A stretch of DNA of 5,501 bases, taken from contig VBKY01000346.1 of the NCBI GenBank assembly GCA_005879255.1, forward strand, positions 1-5,501, read 5' to 3'. Below are positions 341 to 5,429 of this stretch, one piece after another. Numbering within the stretch: the stretch's first letter is position 1; the number at the start of each line of letters is the position of its first letter. The notes under the pieces are model-generated. The model was given only the letters and a program-made list of their open reading frames with translations. It was not told where the DNA came from and did not search any database. A program made the position numbers and the translations under genes. Source of the DNA: Deltaproteobacteria bacterium (GTDB lineage Bacteria; Desulfobacterota_B; Binatia; UBA9968).

Positions 341-1999
341 TCATTCAGCTCGCCCAGAGTGCGTCTTGCCCCATTTAGCGCGCATCGATTTTAAGGTCTC
401 GCCTTCACCGACCTGAACGCGCGTCTGGCGCAAGATTTCCCAAACTTTTTCATGCTCGCTTCGTGCCGCGAGCTCGGCTTCGTGGTTCAGGTTTTCCGGC
501 CATAAGCCCATCAGGTAACCGTGCCAGGGTTCTTGCGGTTGGAGTTTCGGCAAGCCTAGCTCCTCCCAGATTTCTTTAGCGCGAACCATGAATTCTTCCT
601 TCGGTAAGGAAAGGGGAGGAAAGTCGGCTTTCCTCGTCGCATCGATAAGCAAGGATGATTCGGAGTTATCGTAGCGGCTCGATGGATGGGTTGCGACCAT
701 GCCGATCGGCGTAGCGCCGAACGGACGATCGCCGACGATCTTGACGTCTTTGTGCGGTTGCGAGCGGTGCGTGATCGCCCATGTTACCGCTATGGGATCT
801 TTGACGTTGATATCTTCGTCGACGGCGACAATCATTTTTCCTACACGGTCACCGTAGTCCAATACCGCTTGCATCACACCCCATGGATCTTCGTCGTTGC
901 GTTTTTTAAGACTCACGGCGACATAGGGACGCATATTTACTAGCGGCTCGATCATGTGCACTTCCCTGACGCAGTCGAAGCCTTTACTGATGATGAATCG
1001 TTTGACCAGCGTCGCCATGCCCATCGCTTTGATCTTGGAGCTTTCGCTGGGCGTAACTTGACTTATGATCGACACCCAGATCGGGTTCTTGCGATGAGTA
1101 ACGCATTTGAGCTCGAACATCGTGCTCAAGGTGCGCGGGTCGACGTAACCCATGGACTCGCCGTAGGGCCCTTCCTCTTCCATATAATTGGTTGGAATGA
1201 TCCCTTCGAGCACGATCTCCGAGGTCGCGGGCACTTCGAGATCGACGGTCTGGCACTTCACGAGTTTCACGGGCGCGCCCATCAAGCCGCCGGCGAGCGC
1301 GAGCTCGTCAATCTCCGGCGGCACTTTTTGGGTTGCGCAGTAGGACACAGCGGGAATCGTGCCGACGACAATCGCGACTTCCAATGGTTTGCCCAACTTG
1401 CGGCATTTTTCCCAATGAGTCGACAGATCCTGCGGCGTGCCCGACATGAGACCGGTCGTGGTCGGGCCTTTGATCAAGCCTCGATAATTACCGACGTTGC
1501 GTCTGCCGGTTTCCGGATCTTTGGTTATCCAGTGTCCGGCGGTAATGTACGGTCCATTGTCGAATCCGGGCGTCGACATCGGAACGGCGAACTCCATCAA
1601 GCCGCCGTGCGCGAGCAATTGATCGCCCTTATGGATTTCCTCCTGACACGAGCCGGAACCGACAATCACCGGATCGACTAAATGATCCATGGCGTAGATC
1701 CATCGATCGGCAACTTCGTCGGGTTGGCATTTAAGACCCAAGCAATAGATCGCCTCCGATCCCGAAAGACCGCCGACGAGAACTTGGCAATGGTATTTGC
1801 GCTTCTTGCCGTCGGTGACGTTGTCGAACAAAAATCCGCGCCGTCCCTCTTCGGGTATGCCGCCTCTGAACTGCCAACGGACCAGCGGTTGTAACTCGCT
1901 GTCTTTGTTGATTTCACGGTGAATGCGATACAATTTGCCGTGTTCATCCAATGCGGCGATAAACTCACGCAAATCCTCATAGGGCTTGGCGAAATTCAT
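341..1999 (-). CDS. UbiD-family prenylated-FMN-dependent (de)carboxylase
   Basis: Encodes a complete 552-residue cytoplasmic enzyme of the UbiD family, which reversibly (de)carboxylates aromatic or alpha,beta-unsaturated acids using prenylated FMN, a divalent metal (Mn) and K+. The catalytic set is visible: N168 and R173 in NVGNYR, and E276 and E281 in EEGPYGE, equivalent to N168, R173, E277 and E282 of Aspergillus niger FDC1. E232 in IDELALAGG matches the metal-ligand E233. VPATSEIVLEG (256-266) and WAITHRSQPHKD (407-418) are family hallmarks. At the third metal-ligand position, His191 of FDC1, this protein has D191 in PQDLSTHW. It is about 50 residues longer than FDC1 or E. coli UbiD because of a C-terminal tail (about 460-552, with PWHGYLMGLWPE) of a type I recall from a non-ubiquinone subclade. 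The start is bounded by an in-frame TAG five codons upstream; no clear ribosome binding site is seen. No ubiX or ubiquinone gene is adjacent, so the substrate is unknown and the symbol ubiD is not assigned. Confidence 0.93.
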   Translation of the reverse strand: MNFAKPYEDLREFIAALDEHGKLYRIHREINKDSELQPLVRWQFRGGIPEEGRRGFLFDNVTDGKKRKYHCQVLVGGLSGSEAIYCLGLKCQPDEVADRWIYAMDHLVDPVIVGSGSCQEEIHKGDQLLAHGGLMEFAVPMSTPGFDNGPYITAGHWITKDPETGRRNVGNYRGLIKGPTTTGLMSGTPQDLSTHWEKCRKLGKPLEVAIVVGTIPAVSYCATQKVPPEIDELALAGGLMGAPVKLVKCQTVDLEVPATSEIVLEGIIPTNYMEEEGPYGESMGYVDPRTLSTMFELKCVTHRKNPIWVSIISQVTPSESSKIKAMGMATLVKRFIISKGFDCVREVHMIEPLVNMRPYVAVSLKKRNDEDPWGVMQAVLDYGDRVGKMIVAVDEDINVKDPIAVTWAITHRSQPHKDVKIVGDRPFGATPIGMVATHPSSRYDNSESSLLIDATRKADFPPLSLPKEEFMVRAKEIWEELGLPKLQPQEPWHGYLMGLWPENLNHEAELAARSEHEKVWEILRQTRVQVGEGETLKSMRAKWGKTHSGRAE

Positions 2000-2099: not shown

Positions 2100-3503
2100 A
2101 TGTCGTTAAGAATCTTCAATACGTTAACTGGAACGAAAGAAATTTTTGTTCCGCTGACGCCGGGACAGGTGCGTCTGTACGTTTGCGGCGTGACGGTTTA
2201 CGATTCGGCACACATCGGACACGCGCGCTCTCTCGCGACTTTCGACGTGATCTATCGTTACCTCAAGTTTTCCGGCTACGACGTCAAATTCGTGCGCAAT
2301 TTTACCGATGTGGATGATAAGATTATCAACAAGGCCAACGAGGAAAAGGTCAGCTGCGAAGTCATCACCAATCGCTACATCGAAGAATATTATCGTGACA
2401 GCGAAACTTTGGGGTTGTTACGTCCGACCGAGGAGCCGAGAGCAACATCGCATATCCCGGAAATCATCGCGCTCATCGAACGGCTCGAAAATAAAGGTCT
2501 CGCCTATTCAATCGGCGGTGACGTATACTACGAAGTGAACCGCTTTAAAGACTACGGCAAATTATCTGGCAAGAAGATCGCCGAACTCGAGGCGGGCGCG
2601 AGAGTGGAGGTCGACGAGCGCAAGAAGTCTCCTTTGGATTTCGCGCTGTGGAAATCGAGCAAGCCGGGCGAACCCACTTGGGATAGCCCATGGGGTCCCG
2701 GTAGGCCGGGTTGGCACATCGAATGTTCGGCAATGAGCACCAAGTATCTCGGACAGCCGTTTGACATCCACGGCGGCGGCACTGATTTGATGTTTCCGCA
2801 CCACGAGAACGAAATTGCCCAATCGGAAGCAGCCTTCGATTGTCCGTTTGCGCGTTATTGGATCCATAACGGCCTGCTCACCGTAAATAGTGAGAAGATG
2901 TCCAAGTCGTTGGGCAACTACTTTACAGTCCGGGAGATTCTGGAAGGACAAGACGCCGCTGCATTGCGCCAGTGGTTCCTCGGCAGCCAGTATCGCAGTC
3001 CGATGGATTTCTCCAGGGAAGGATTGGAAGAAGCAGGAAAAGCAACCGATCGCATTTACGAAACCCTCGATCGGGTAAACCAATCGCTCAAAGGACAGGC
3101 ACAAGCCGTAGCAGATTCAGCGCTGATGGATTCTTTCCGCCACGAGATGGATGACGATTTCAACACGCCGCGCGCGCTGGCGTTGATTTTTGACGAAGTG
3201 CGCGCGCTCAATCGGTTGCTTGACGACAAAAAGTTGAAAGGGATTGAGTCAAGAGGCGCTGCGCTGCGCATGATGTGCGATACGCTCGGGCTGCTTCACG
3301 AAGGATATTTTGATCGGAAGAAAGAGCGTTGGCTCAGAAAAGCGCCGATCTCGCGGGAAGAGATCGAAAGCAGAATTGCCGAGCGCGATGATGCGAGAAA
3401 AGCAAAGGAATGGGAAAAGGCGGATCGCATCCGTGACCAACTCCAGAAGGAAGGGATAGTGATTGAAGATACGCCCGGAGGAACCCTATGGAAGGTGAAG
3501 TAA
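2100..3503 (+). CDS. cysS: Cysteinyl-tRNA synthetase
   Basis: Encodes a complete 467-residue class I cysteinyl-tRNA synthetase, which charges tRNA-Cys with cysteine in the cytoplasm; this is close to the 461 residues of the E. coli enzyme. The catalytic fold carries the HIGH motif at 38-41 (AHIGHARS) and the KMSKS motif at 266-270. All four zinc ligands that select cysteine are present: C29, C209 in WHIECSAM, H234 and E238 in HHENE. The helical DALR-type domain spans about 345-405, and the C-terminal anticodon-contacting segment ends in a GGTLWK-type motif. The start is at 2100; no Shine-Dalgarno sequence precedes it. The stop at 3501-3503 lies inside the next gene, which begins at 3488, so the two are probably co-transcribed and translationally coupled. 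It is divergent from the UbiD-family gene. Nothing suggests truncation or loss of activity. Confidence 0.98.
   Translation: MSLRIFNTLTGTKEIFVPLTPGQVRLYVCGVTVYDSAHIGHARSLATFDVIYRYLKFSGYDVKFVRNFTDVDDKIINKANEEKVSCEVITNRYIEEYYRDSETLGLLRPTEEPRATSHIPEIIALIERLENKGLAYSIGGDVYYEVNRFKDYGKLSGKKIAELEAGARVEVDERKKSPLDFALWKSSKPGEPTWDSPWGPGRPGWHIECSAMSTKYLGQPFDIHGGGTDLMFPHHENEIAQSEAAFDCPFARYWIHNGLLTVNSEKMSKSLGNYFTVREILEGQDAAALRQWFLGSQYRSPMDFSREGLEEAGKATDRIYETLDRVNQSLKGQAQAVADSALMDSFRHEMDDDFNTPRALALIFDEVRALNRLLDDKKLKGIESRGAALRMMCDTLGLLHEGYFDRKKERWLRKAPISREEIESRIAERDDARKAKEWEKADRIRDQLQKEGIVIEDTPGGTLWKVK
3477..3481 (+). promoter_or_regulatory. Ribosome binding site of the LysM protein gene, inside cysS
   Basis: GGAGG lies six bases before the ATG at 3488 and is the strongest Shine-Dalgarno sequence in the window. 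It is embedded in the codons for the last residues of cysS (the GGT of GGTLWK). It favours 3488 over the in-frame ATG at 3509, which has only AAGGA two bases upstream, too close to work well. Confidence 0.65.
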
Positions 3504-5335
3504 GGATCATGCGGCTTTACCATCACCTTTTATTTATCGGCGCCGGCCTCATCGTGTTCTGCGCGCCCGCACTCGGCCGTGCGCAGGCGGCGGCGCCCTC
3601 GGCTCCGGCCGGCGGTCAGGCGGAGCTGAACCTGCGTAGGTCGGTCAACACGCGTGAATTTCGCGGCCAAGAGGTTCAAGGTGAAGAGCGCCAAATAGGT
3701 CCCGGCGATTCTCTGTGGCGGATCTTGGTGGAGGAGAAGGGCCTATCGGGGAAAAAATTTCGCAGCTATCTCGTGGTGATTCGAGGATTGAATCCTCAGG
3801 TAAAAAACCTTGACGTACTGCGCGTCGGGGACAAAATCTTCATTCCGCTCCGCGCCGATCAATTGCTCGAAGGCGGTCCTTCGACCGAAGTTGCCGTCTC
3901 CGAGAAGACGCAACCTGGTGCCGGAGTGACCACCAGCTACCGCGTGAAAGCGGGCGAACATCTCTATCAAATTTTACGGGAACAGCTGAAAGTCACCGAT
4001 GACCGTAAAGTCGCGCAGTATTACGCGCTGGTAAAAGACCTCAATCCTGAGCGCAAAACCTGGGACACTCTTTTAGAAGGCGAGATCCTGCGATTACCCA
4101 CGGTGGGCCGCGGCCAAGAGATCACAGCGAGGGCAGCGCCGCCGGCTGTAGAAACCAAACCGGCGCCGGCACCGCGGGCCGGCGCCGAACCTAAGCCCCC
4201 GCCGGAAGCGACAGCGAGCGCGGCGCCGAAAGCAGCTCTCGGGCCACAGGACCGGCGTCAAACTCTTCGGGCGCCGGCGAAAGATAACATGGCGTTGTTC
4301 GCTACGGTTGTGGAAGCGATGGGCGGTCAAATGCAGCAAAGCGGTGAAGAAGTCGTCGTCGTAAAGGACGCTACCGTCCGTTTCGACAAGAGCACCTACC
4401 CAGTGATCTACAATCCCACGTTGGGACAAAAAGTGGTCATTGACCCGGATGACAAGATCCCGGCTTCGCTTAGAACGAAATTGAGCGACCCATCCGTTGG
4501 GACACAAGTTTTGCCGATGGCCAACGGAGTATCGATACAAGAGGCGGTAAGTCAGTTGCTCGCGCGACTGGGTTATCAATCGTTGCCTACGGACCGGCCG
4601 GTCATCGTACATGATGAAGGAGTTGCCTTCGAAGCCAAGGGCAACTGGATCGCTTTGGCTCCGGAGCAAAGTAATAGAACCCAGGAAATCGTTGTTATCA
4701 ACCTCACCGATGAGCCGAGCGAAATCCCGGAATATTTAAAATCTCAACTCGTTAAAAAAGGACTGCATTTGCGCGACGTGGCGCTATCGTCATCGGCCCG
4801 GGGACAAAAGCCGCCTGAAGCGGCGAAGCCGCCCAAAGATGTTGCAGCGCAGGTGAAAAATTGGCCACGGGACAAAGGGGAAATGGTCGACTCGTTGCTT
4901 TTGTCGTTTGGCATATCGTTCGGCGTGGCCGAGACTCTATCAGTTGAGCTGCGCGACGGGCTCAGAGTAGATACGCGCACCGACCGGGTATTTGAGCAGA
5001 ATGGTAAACGCACTGCGCTATTCTTTCAACGCACCGATCCGGAAATTAAACAGGCGTTGCAGGAGAAGCAAGGCGTGCGCACCGTAGAACTCGATATCAG
5101 TTCATTGTCGTCCCGCGAGCTTATCGACAAGGTGTTGACGATGCTGGGTCATCAAGCCTCCTACCGGGAGCATCGCTTTGCCGCGACCAACGGCTCAGCG
5201 CAGGACAGGCTCACCGTTACGGCTTGGGGTTTCCATTTACCCGCGCGCGCGATGTTCGTGACGGACCGTCAAATCCCCGCATCACTTTACCGGTTCTTTT
5301 TTGAAAAAGGCTTGGAGATTGTCTATTTTCAATAG
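3488..5335 (+). CDS. Secreted two-LysM protein with four-repeat C-terminal region of unknown function
   Basis: Encodes a 615-residue exported protein. Residues 14-34 form a hydrophobic signal segment (LLFIGAGLIVFCAPALG) ending in AQA, a likely signal peptidase I site near residue 34; no lipobox is present. Two LysM-like domains follow, at about 69-121 (GPGDSLWRIL...LRVGDKIFIPL) and 150-205 (YRVKAGEHLYQIL...LLEGEILRLP). They keep the xxGDSLWxI, (L/D)LNP and GxxxxLP signatures of peptidoglycan-binding LysM. A Pro/Ala-rich linker covers about 214-265. Residues 268-615 match no family I recognise, but appear to be four degenerate copies of one unit. No catalytic peptidase or amidase motif is seen. 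The periplasmic, wall-binding location is inferred from LysM plus the signal peptide. The start at 3488 is chosen for its strong GGAGG; starting at M8 (3509) would give a more typical, less acidic signal n-region, so it remains possible. The gene overlaps cysS by 16 bases and ends 17 bases before a tRNA. Confidence 0.92.
   Translation: MEGEVRIMRLYHHLLFIGAGLIVFCAPALGRAQAAAPSAPAGGQAELNLRRSVNTREFRGQEVQGEERQIGPGDSLWRILVEEKGLSGKKFRSYLVVIRGLNPQVKNLDVLRVGDKIFIPLRADQLLEGGPSTEVAVSEKTQPGAGVTTSYRVKAGEHLYQILREQLKVTDDRKVAQYYALVKDLNPERKTWDTLLEGEILRLPTVGRGQEITARAAPPAVETKPAPAPRAGAEPKPPPEATASAAPKAALGPQDRRQTLRAPAKDNMALFATVVEAMGGQMQQSGEEVVVVKDATVRFDKSTYPVIYNPTLGQKVVIDPDDKIPASLRTKLSDPSVGTQVLPMANGVSIQEAVSQLLARLGYQSLPTDRPVIVHDEGVAFEAKGNWIALAPEQSNRTQEIVVINLTDEPSEIPEYLKSQLVKKGLHLRDVALSSSARGQKPPEAAKPPKDVAAQVKNWPRDKGEMVDSLLLSFGISFGVAETLSVELRDGLRVDTRTDRVFEQNGKRTALFFQRTDPEIKQALQEKQGVRTVELDISSLSSRELIDKVLTMLGHQASYREHRFAATNGSAQDRLTVTAWGFHLPARAMFVTDRQIPASLYRFFFEKGLEIVYFQ
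4289..5332 (+). repeat. Four degenerate protein-level repeats in the LysM protein C-terminal region
   Basis: By eye, protein residues 268-343, 349-432, 463-536 and 541-614 share one layout. Each has an amphipathic helix ending in a leucine/glycine turn (VVEAMGGQ, LLARLGYQ, LLLSFGIS, VLTMLGHQ), then a strand like (G)(L/V)xF/V, then a hydrophobic strand, then D-x-x-IP-x-x-L and a second helix, ending in a G(L/V)-plus-strand (KGLHLRDV, QGVRTVEL, KGLEIVYF). IPASL occurs exactly at 324-328 and 596-600; the second copy has IPEYL at 413-417 and the third has DPEIKQAL at 517-524. Identity between copies is low, so this is an ancient duplication, not a recent DNA repeat. Confidence 0.5.
5301..5329 (+). 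promoter_or_regulatory. Candidate tRNA-Arg promoter within the 3' end of the LysM gene
   Basis: TTGAAA (5301-5306, five of six to the -35 consensus) and TATTTT (5324-5329, four of six to the -10 consensus) are spaced by exactly 17 bases. Transcription would start near 5336, about 17 bases before the mature tRNA 5' end. This is the best-spaced promoter in the window and would let the tRNA be made independently of the upstream operon. Confidence 0.5.
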
Positions 5336-5352: not shown

Positions 5353-5429
5353 GCGCCTGTAGCTCAACTGGACAGAGCATCAGACTTCGGATCTGAGGGT
5401 TGGGGGTTCGAATCCCTCCAGGCGCGCCA
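5353..5429 (+). tRNA. tRNA-Arg(UCG), reads CGA
   Basis: A full 77-base cloverleaf with encoded CCA. The acceptor stem is GCGCCTG (5353-5359) with CAGGCGC (5419-5425), discriminator G5426 and CCA 5427-5429. The D stem is GCTC/GAGC around AACTGGACA, with the A20 typical of arginine identity. The anticodon stem is TCAGA (5380-5384) with TCTGA (5392-5396) around the loop CTTCGGA, giving anticodon TCG at 5387-5389. The T stem GGGGG/CCCTC has one G-U pair around TTCGAAT. All stems otherwise pair perfectly. It lies 17 bases after the LysM stop codon. No intrinsic terminator is visible in the 72 bases that follow. Confidence 0.97.

Follow-up and report, generated by a model that had tools for sequence, protein, structure and literature searches.

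A LysM protein of a Binatia-type bacterium ends in a four-fold repeat of units that probably share a restriction-endonuclease-like fold

What kind of domain forms the C-terminal part of the LysM protein encoded in a 5501-base stretch of contig VBKY01000346.1 from a Deltaproteobacteria bacterium, and what might it do at the cell wall? The whole stretch is termed the window here, and features are numbered by its positions. From position 4289 (residue 268 of the 615-amino-acid (aa) open reading frame) onwards, an earlier note had described four divergent copies of an alpha/beta unit belonging to no recognised family, carried by a secreted protein with two LysM modules, and had proposed a possibly new binding or scaffold module.

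The C-terminal domain is almost certainly a four-fold repeat. In hhalign comparisons with 44 close homologs the repeat signal was weak and the profiles were too shallow, the best E-values being 0.007 (units 2 and 4) and 0.01 (units 1 and 2), with 0.027 to 0.34 over short stretches for the remaining pairs. Deeper unit profiles of 60 sequences, including divergent homologs (effective number of sequences 5-7), aligned all six pairs over 69-79 columns, with E-values of 1.5e-9 (units 3 and 4), 1.5e-7 (2 and 4), 1e-6 (2 and 3), 9.1e-6 (1 and 3), 1.9e-4 (1 and 2) and 5.8e-3 (1 and 4); LysM modules compared with units in the same way aligned over at most 23 columns. Chance repetition or generic alpha/beta similarity was excluded by a control set of 116 sequence windows from 20 neighbour-gene families, in which the top scores against units 1-4 were 15.6, 19.8, 18.6 and 20.2. 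Five of the unit pairs (scores 24.6-46.2) exceeded every control of the two units concerned, the weakest pair (units 1 and 4, 17.1) was equalled or beaten by one of 232 controls, and none of 464 control alignments spanned 60 columns or more.

The full-length AlphaFold model has a mean predicted local distance difference test score (pLDDT) of 67, and a model of the domain alone (residues 252-615) was used in its place. It contains four alpha-(beta)n-alpha-beta units, at residues 264-343, 350-432, 463-534 and 542-614, so that the number of copies proposed earlier stands and their layout is amended: the first begins at about residue 264, each is 72-83 residues long, and units 2 and 3 are separated by a stretch of low confidence at about 437-445. 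The motifs first quoted for the copies are present, IPASL at 324-328 and 596-600 (copies 1 and 4), KGLHLRDV at 424-431 and KGLEIVYF at 607-614. An alignment of 56 unit sequences (A5; four units from each of 14 proteins) essentially reproduces the pattern described by eye, with an L..hG helix, strands, a strand ending in D, N or T, an (I/L)P..h helix, and then G plus a strand.

The fold of the units is suggested by unit 3. VIA-align comparison of two predicted models of the protein places this confidently modelled unit, among the folds that VIA-align listed, in the restriction-endonuclease-like (PD-(D/E)XK) fold, with its alpha-beta-beta-beta-alpha-beta core, and nearly all the leading structural matches for the stretch belong to one superfamily in both models. 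The top match aligns 81 residues with a chain of 97 residues at 2.5 A, a second library of viral structures also returns some named nucleases, and the matches reach beyond unit 3 to include the opening helix of unit 4. Units 1, 2 and 4 have no nuclease match of their own in the VIA-align listing; they are joined to unit 3 by profile similarity and secondary-structure order, and the fold is extended to them tentatively. On these models the units probably have a PD-(D/E)XK-type fold, and the module can no longer be regarded as new in its fold. As the earlier note had held, the region corresponds to no recognised family, since no Pfam or NCBIfam model scored above cut-off for the four-unit domain; a known single domain covering the whole region was likewise rejected, PDB sequence searches having given no convincing match, with a UDP-GlcNAc 1-carboxyvinyltransferase listed at E 0.074 for residues 251-312, and no single non-repetitive fold was found in the model. 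An STN/secretin assignment (PF07660) was not favoured either, as its matches were weak, confined to close homologs (21 of 44, best 8.4e-4) and missing among the 20 families listed for 32 members of the broad family alignment.

Several results weigh against the nuclease-type fold. Foldseek against PDB gave E-values not below 0.001. Pfam comparison of the 56 unit sequences (E up to 10) listed 11 families, none of them a PD-(D/E)XK nuclease, and profile searches of PDB provided no convincing nuclease sequence link, the closest nuclease being PspGI (E 0.62 over 20 residues) in one search and none appearing in a second. The Foldseek values, the want of a sequence link and the missing catalytic set (below) would all suit an alpha/beta arrangement that resembles the PD-(D/E)XK core by convergence, in which case the inferences from nucleases would be void and the repeat would stand. 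The concentration of leading matches in one superfamily with two models, the nucleases named in the second library and the extent of the top match make such convergence unlikely.

The domain was then followed among relatives. Where homologs and loci carry an organism name, the assembly is labelled Candidatus Binatia, Deltaproteobacteria or, in one case, Syntrophobacter, which makes the Binatia group the most likely origin of the window. An alignment scan of contigs gave seven loci, one of which (L007, a Thalassobacillus) matched only at residues 63-136, in the LysM part. A 99-row alignment, searched against 297 genomes from the phylum to which G002 (the genome that contains locus L002) belongs, matched 58 of them, partly through LysM only. 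In the 29 loci taken from this search (L015-L043), the encoded proteins combine LysM modules and a linker with a C-terminal domain of 319-362 residues. A LysM-containing profile matched 254 of the 297, many through LysM only, and this count was not used. A domain-only profile (A4) matched 84 of the 297, with one match in 82 genomes and two pieces in a single-length open frame in G260 and G301; it matched none of 199 genomes from the phylum that includes L007. Sixty-five loci were compared: 60 fetched ones and L002 (from G002), which together represent 61 of the 84 genomes, and the Binatia-type L001, L003, L005 and L006; L004 (short contig) and L007 (LysM only) were left out. All four units occur in order in 59 of these relatives and one unit is missing in six; two LysM modules are present in 59 and one in six, and no relative lacks LysM. 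A unit 4 match is present in 61 relatives, of which the related L129 and L132 continue for 45 and 42 residues beyond that unit and the remaining 59 end within 11 residues. No description of this family, or of a LysM protein with such a domain, was found in the titles and abstract starts returned by the open-access library searched, for the terms used.

Catalytic positions were equated from the A4 and A5 sequence alignments, not from coordinates, in 305 proteins, made up of the 65 relatives plus 240 Binatia-type proteins (246 less six that fell short of 520 aa). The full D/E + D/E + K set (D ... (D/E)xK) at aligned positions occurs in none of the 305 in any of the four units, and a looser motif search, within 2-3 residues, found it in 11 for unit 1, one for unit 2 and none for units 3 and 4. 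Unit 3 has the first acid in 49 of the 65 relatives (38 D, 11 E) and in all 240 Binatia-type proteins; both acids are present in 24 and in none, respectively, the second position in the Binatia-type proteins being Phe, Val, Ser or Ile. Unit 1 keeps the second acid only (62/65 and 239/240). In unit 2 the first position is D in 33/65 and 15/240, and the two acids never occur together; unit 4 has no acid pair. In the window protein the three positions are Y/D/D in unit 1, N/N/T in unit 2, D/F/Q in unit 3 and G/T/R in unit 4. Judged from these alignments, there is good reason to regard the units as catalytically dead.

The signal peptide is read from the sequence, and in P0001, a near-identical protein, a hydropathy scan gives a single hydrophobic segment, near residue 12. 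The two LysM modules noted earlier are borne out by their mutual hhalign match (E 4.8e-28) and by the structural match of residues 142-207 to solved LysM domains; the Pfam LysM score of the window protein itself, 15.8 bits, is under the cut-off of 20.9 bits, and PF01476 (LysM) is listed for 31 of the 32 members of the broad family alignment (E up to 10, best 3e-12). Residues 207-255, within the linker, have pLDDT under 50 in the full-length model. The view of the repeat as part of a secreted LysM protein is thus supported, and the protein is very probably extracytoplasmic and wall-bound. Between the signal peptide and the first LysM module, ELNLRRS (residues 46-52, window 3623-3643) appears by eye to be a hxLxK(T/S)-type segment kept in many relatives, distant ones included.

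On balance, the favoured explanation is that the C-terminal domain comprises four tandem PD-(D/E)XK-fold units devoid of nuclease residues, on an exported, peptidoglycan-held LysM protein that may dock wall enzymes. Following export across the membrane, the LysM modules would hold the protein to peptidoglycan, as is typical of their family, and the disordered linker would let the four-unit arm extend away from the wall. The four pseudonuclease units could then offer protein-binding faces for partners, such that a peptidoglycan-bound adaptor positions or regulates wall enzymes, for example PBP1A-type synthases and SLT lytic transglycosylases. The domain is somewhat more plausibly a protein scaffold than a nucleic-acid binder. 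Of the earlier proposal, the binding or scaffold role remains the best functional guess, without novelty of fold, because the nuclease residues are gone, the median unit charge is -1 and peptidoglycan enzymes are neighbours in some clades (secretion or pilus ATPases in others). That the docking partners are wall enzymes is a tentative suggestion. Rather unlikely, as a complete statement, is that the exported, catalytically stripped, quadruplicated fold is an adaptor arm coupling PBP1A-type synthases with lytic transglycosylases, which would make it an unnamed wall-growth regulator common across one phylum and the first example of a pseudonuclease scaffold arrayed in tandem outside the cytoplasm.

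Neighbouring genes vary by clade among the 65 loci, several of which are truncated by contig ends. Ten loci, forming one clade, have a PBP1A-like gene immediately upstream in the same orientation, and the one tested matched Transgly (1.5e-57) and Transpeptidase (1.5e-29). A lytic-transglycosylase-like gene occurs within five genes in 14 loci of three clades, with SLT confirmed in all seven genes tested; by our own estimate from 132 SLT matches in 30 genomes (4.4 each), about 1% of 10-kb windows would contain one by chance. The SLT-neighbour label requires at least 7 changes on the tree, contig ends included. Two points count against wall enzymes as partners: such neighbours are confined to a minority of loci, and T2SSE ATPases, Pfam-confirmed in each case, lie within five genes in seven of the 65 loci, at three places in the tree. 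In the clade L087-L089 the ATPase gene immediately follows the LysM gene on the same strand; in L074, L079 and L080 it lies upstream at a distance of three to five genes, and in L102 it is on the opposite strand, two genes off. These ATPases make wall-enzyme partners, the favoured explanation and its coupling-arm version slightly less likely and a pilus or secretion role more likely. Neither the PBP1A and SLT neighbours nor the T2SSE genes amount to proof; as leads, the former carry somewhat more weight.

Another alternative is a role in pilus or secretion assembly, like that of FimV/HubP or TsaP. Besides the T2SSE genes, it draws on homolog P0088, named 'type IV pilus assembly protein FimV', on weak FimV_core matches in 3 of 44 close and 7 of 32 broad members, and on a weak TsaP match (E 0.03) in the LysM part only. 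FimV/HubP has a transmembrane segment after LysM, plus a cytoplasmic part; hydropathy found no hydrophobic segment after the first LysM in 63 of 65 relatives, leaving two with one, and none in P0001. FimV membership was rejected on these grounds, FimV_core (TIGR03505) not being listed for the window protein at E up to 1 (best match in the family 9e-4), and the name of P0088 thus has no backing from either feature. The likeness to FimV/HubP and TsaP lies in a LysM module in an envelope protein and in pilus-type ATPase genes near some members, whereas their remaining domains differ, and the four-unit domain matches none of the parts specific to FimV or TsaP. T2SSE genes are also frequent, with 312 matches across 30 genomes (10.4 per genome, or about 3% of 10-kb windows by chance on our own estimate), and this role is considered improbable.

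The PD-(D/E)XK fold family usually binds nucleic acid, and dead nuclease units might hold DNA at the cell surface, for uptake or as biofilm DNA. A part of one report describes FASTKD4, whose RAP domain has a cavity like those of Vsr and I-Bth0305I, as working on RNA, its authors suggesting no nuclease activity and finding MT-ND3 stability unaltered by a putative catalytic mutation (PMC11879112). On that excerpt, FASTKD4 may be an analogous example of this fold in a protein that apparently is not a nuclease; it is mitochondrial with a positively charged RNA cavity, whereas the present protein has four units, is predicted to be extracytoplasmic and is slightly acidic in the median. Across 30 sequences the median isoelectric point is 5.8 and the median net charge -1 for each unit, single units ranging from -8 to +6, which argues against a general nucleic-acid-binding surface and is compatible with a local patch. 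No DNA-uptake gene was recognised among the recurrent neighbours listed for the 65 loci, and a wall-bound nucleic-acid binder is held to be quite improbable. Active sites drift within the superfamily, and a reading of the protein as a secreted nuclease that works through rearranged catalytic residues could appeal to the acids left in unit 3 and the looser motif hits, but the full set is absent at the aligned positions of all four units and the second acid of unit 3 is replaced in every Binatia-type protein, making this very improbable.

Of known systems, the catalytic domain of I-Bth0305I (PDB 3r3p), an active homing endonuclease of DNA, is a Vsr-like PD-(D/E)XK nuclease with 12% identity; the present protein differs in its four tandem units, predicted export, LysM modules and lack of a catalytic set. 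NlpI and LpoA have other folds and would resemble it in the proposed job alone, as adaptors that serve wall enzymes outside the cytoplasm. According to an extract of its source (PMC10931528), NlpI delivers MepS to the protease Prc, and acting through a protease it is comparable in proposed function only. VRR-Nuc (PDB 4qbn) and the type VI secretion system VRR-Nuc effectors TseV are toxic nucleases in the latter case, with consensus catalytic residues identifiable in TseV3, according to a portion of the source, and may be an analogous precedent for export of this fold (PMC9635880); the present domain has no catalytic residues and occurs once per genome.

The probable fold and the LysM anchor are known, and their combination, location and copy number are new, in a family unnamed in the libraries searched. 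A domain present once per genome in 84 of 297 sampled genomes of one phylum has no family model in Pfam or NCBIfam, and it apparently puts the fold of a DNA enzyme to new use, as an arm of four units outside the cytoplasm. If this is true, a nuclease fold has been turned into cell-envelope architecture, and it would offer a testable handle on how wall synthesis and cleavage are organised in these bacteria.

Table 1. Features of the window, with residues of the LysM protein where applicable.
Feature	Position	Strand	Residues	Basis or remark
UbiD	341-1999	-		UbiD-type decarboxylase gene
cysS (cysteinyl-tRNA synthetase)	2100..3503	+		upstream gene; 3' end overlaps start of LysM gene
LysM and four-unit protein gene	3488..5335	+	615 aa	open reading frame with start at 3488; homologs full-length
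Signal peptide (...ALGRAQA)	3509..3589	+	8-34	read from sequence
LysM module 1	3683..3850	+	66-121	family match, profile comparison
LysM module 2	3935..4102	+	150-205	structural match to solved LysM domains
Pro/Ala-rich linker	4103..4270	+	206-261	mostly very low model confidence
Repeat unit 1	4277..4522	+	264-345	model, profile comparison, controls
Repeat unit 2	4535..4783	+	350-432	model, profile comparison, controls
Repeat unit 3	4853..5089	+	456-534	model, profiles, controls; direct structural match to PD-(D/E)XK nuclease folds
Repeat unit 4 (C terminus)	5111..5332	+	542-615	model, profile comparison, controls
tRNA-Arg	5353..5429	+		downstream of LysM gene; outside the finding

An Rfam scan of the window found nothing besides the tRNA. 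The earliest ATG available to the LysM gene (MEGEVRI..., window 3488-3515) falls inside the end of cysS, and a second ATG follows at 3509, after AAGGTGAAGTAAGGATC. The true start may be the ATG at 3509 rather than that at 3488, and cysS codons together with a ribosome-binding site may account for the MEG kept in close homologs.

Other neighbours among the 65 loci include cysS directly upstream with UbiD beyond it in six Binatia-type loci and, named by eye from translations, SMC-like genes on the opposite strand (nine loci), dxs-like with ispA-like genes (seven) and ABC-transporter ATPases (six). In one clade (L026, L033, L037, L114 and relatives) the LysM gene is recurrently flanked by a DUF1385 gene and, on the opposite side, a ThiI/NFACT-R_2-like gene. 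Upstream of the LysM gene in L087, L088 and L089 is a protein of 400-535 aa with a response-regulator-like start, the L088 copy of which has no Pfam match. The counterpart of the UbiD-type decarboxylase gene in L002 (171-5731) is adjoined by putative molybdenum hydroxylase subunits, named from translations, which suggests a possible aromatic or heterocycle degradation cluster.
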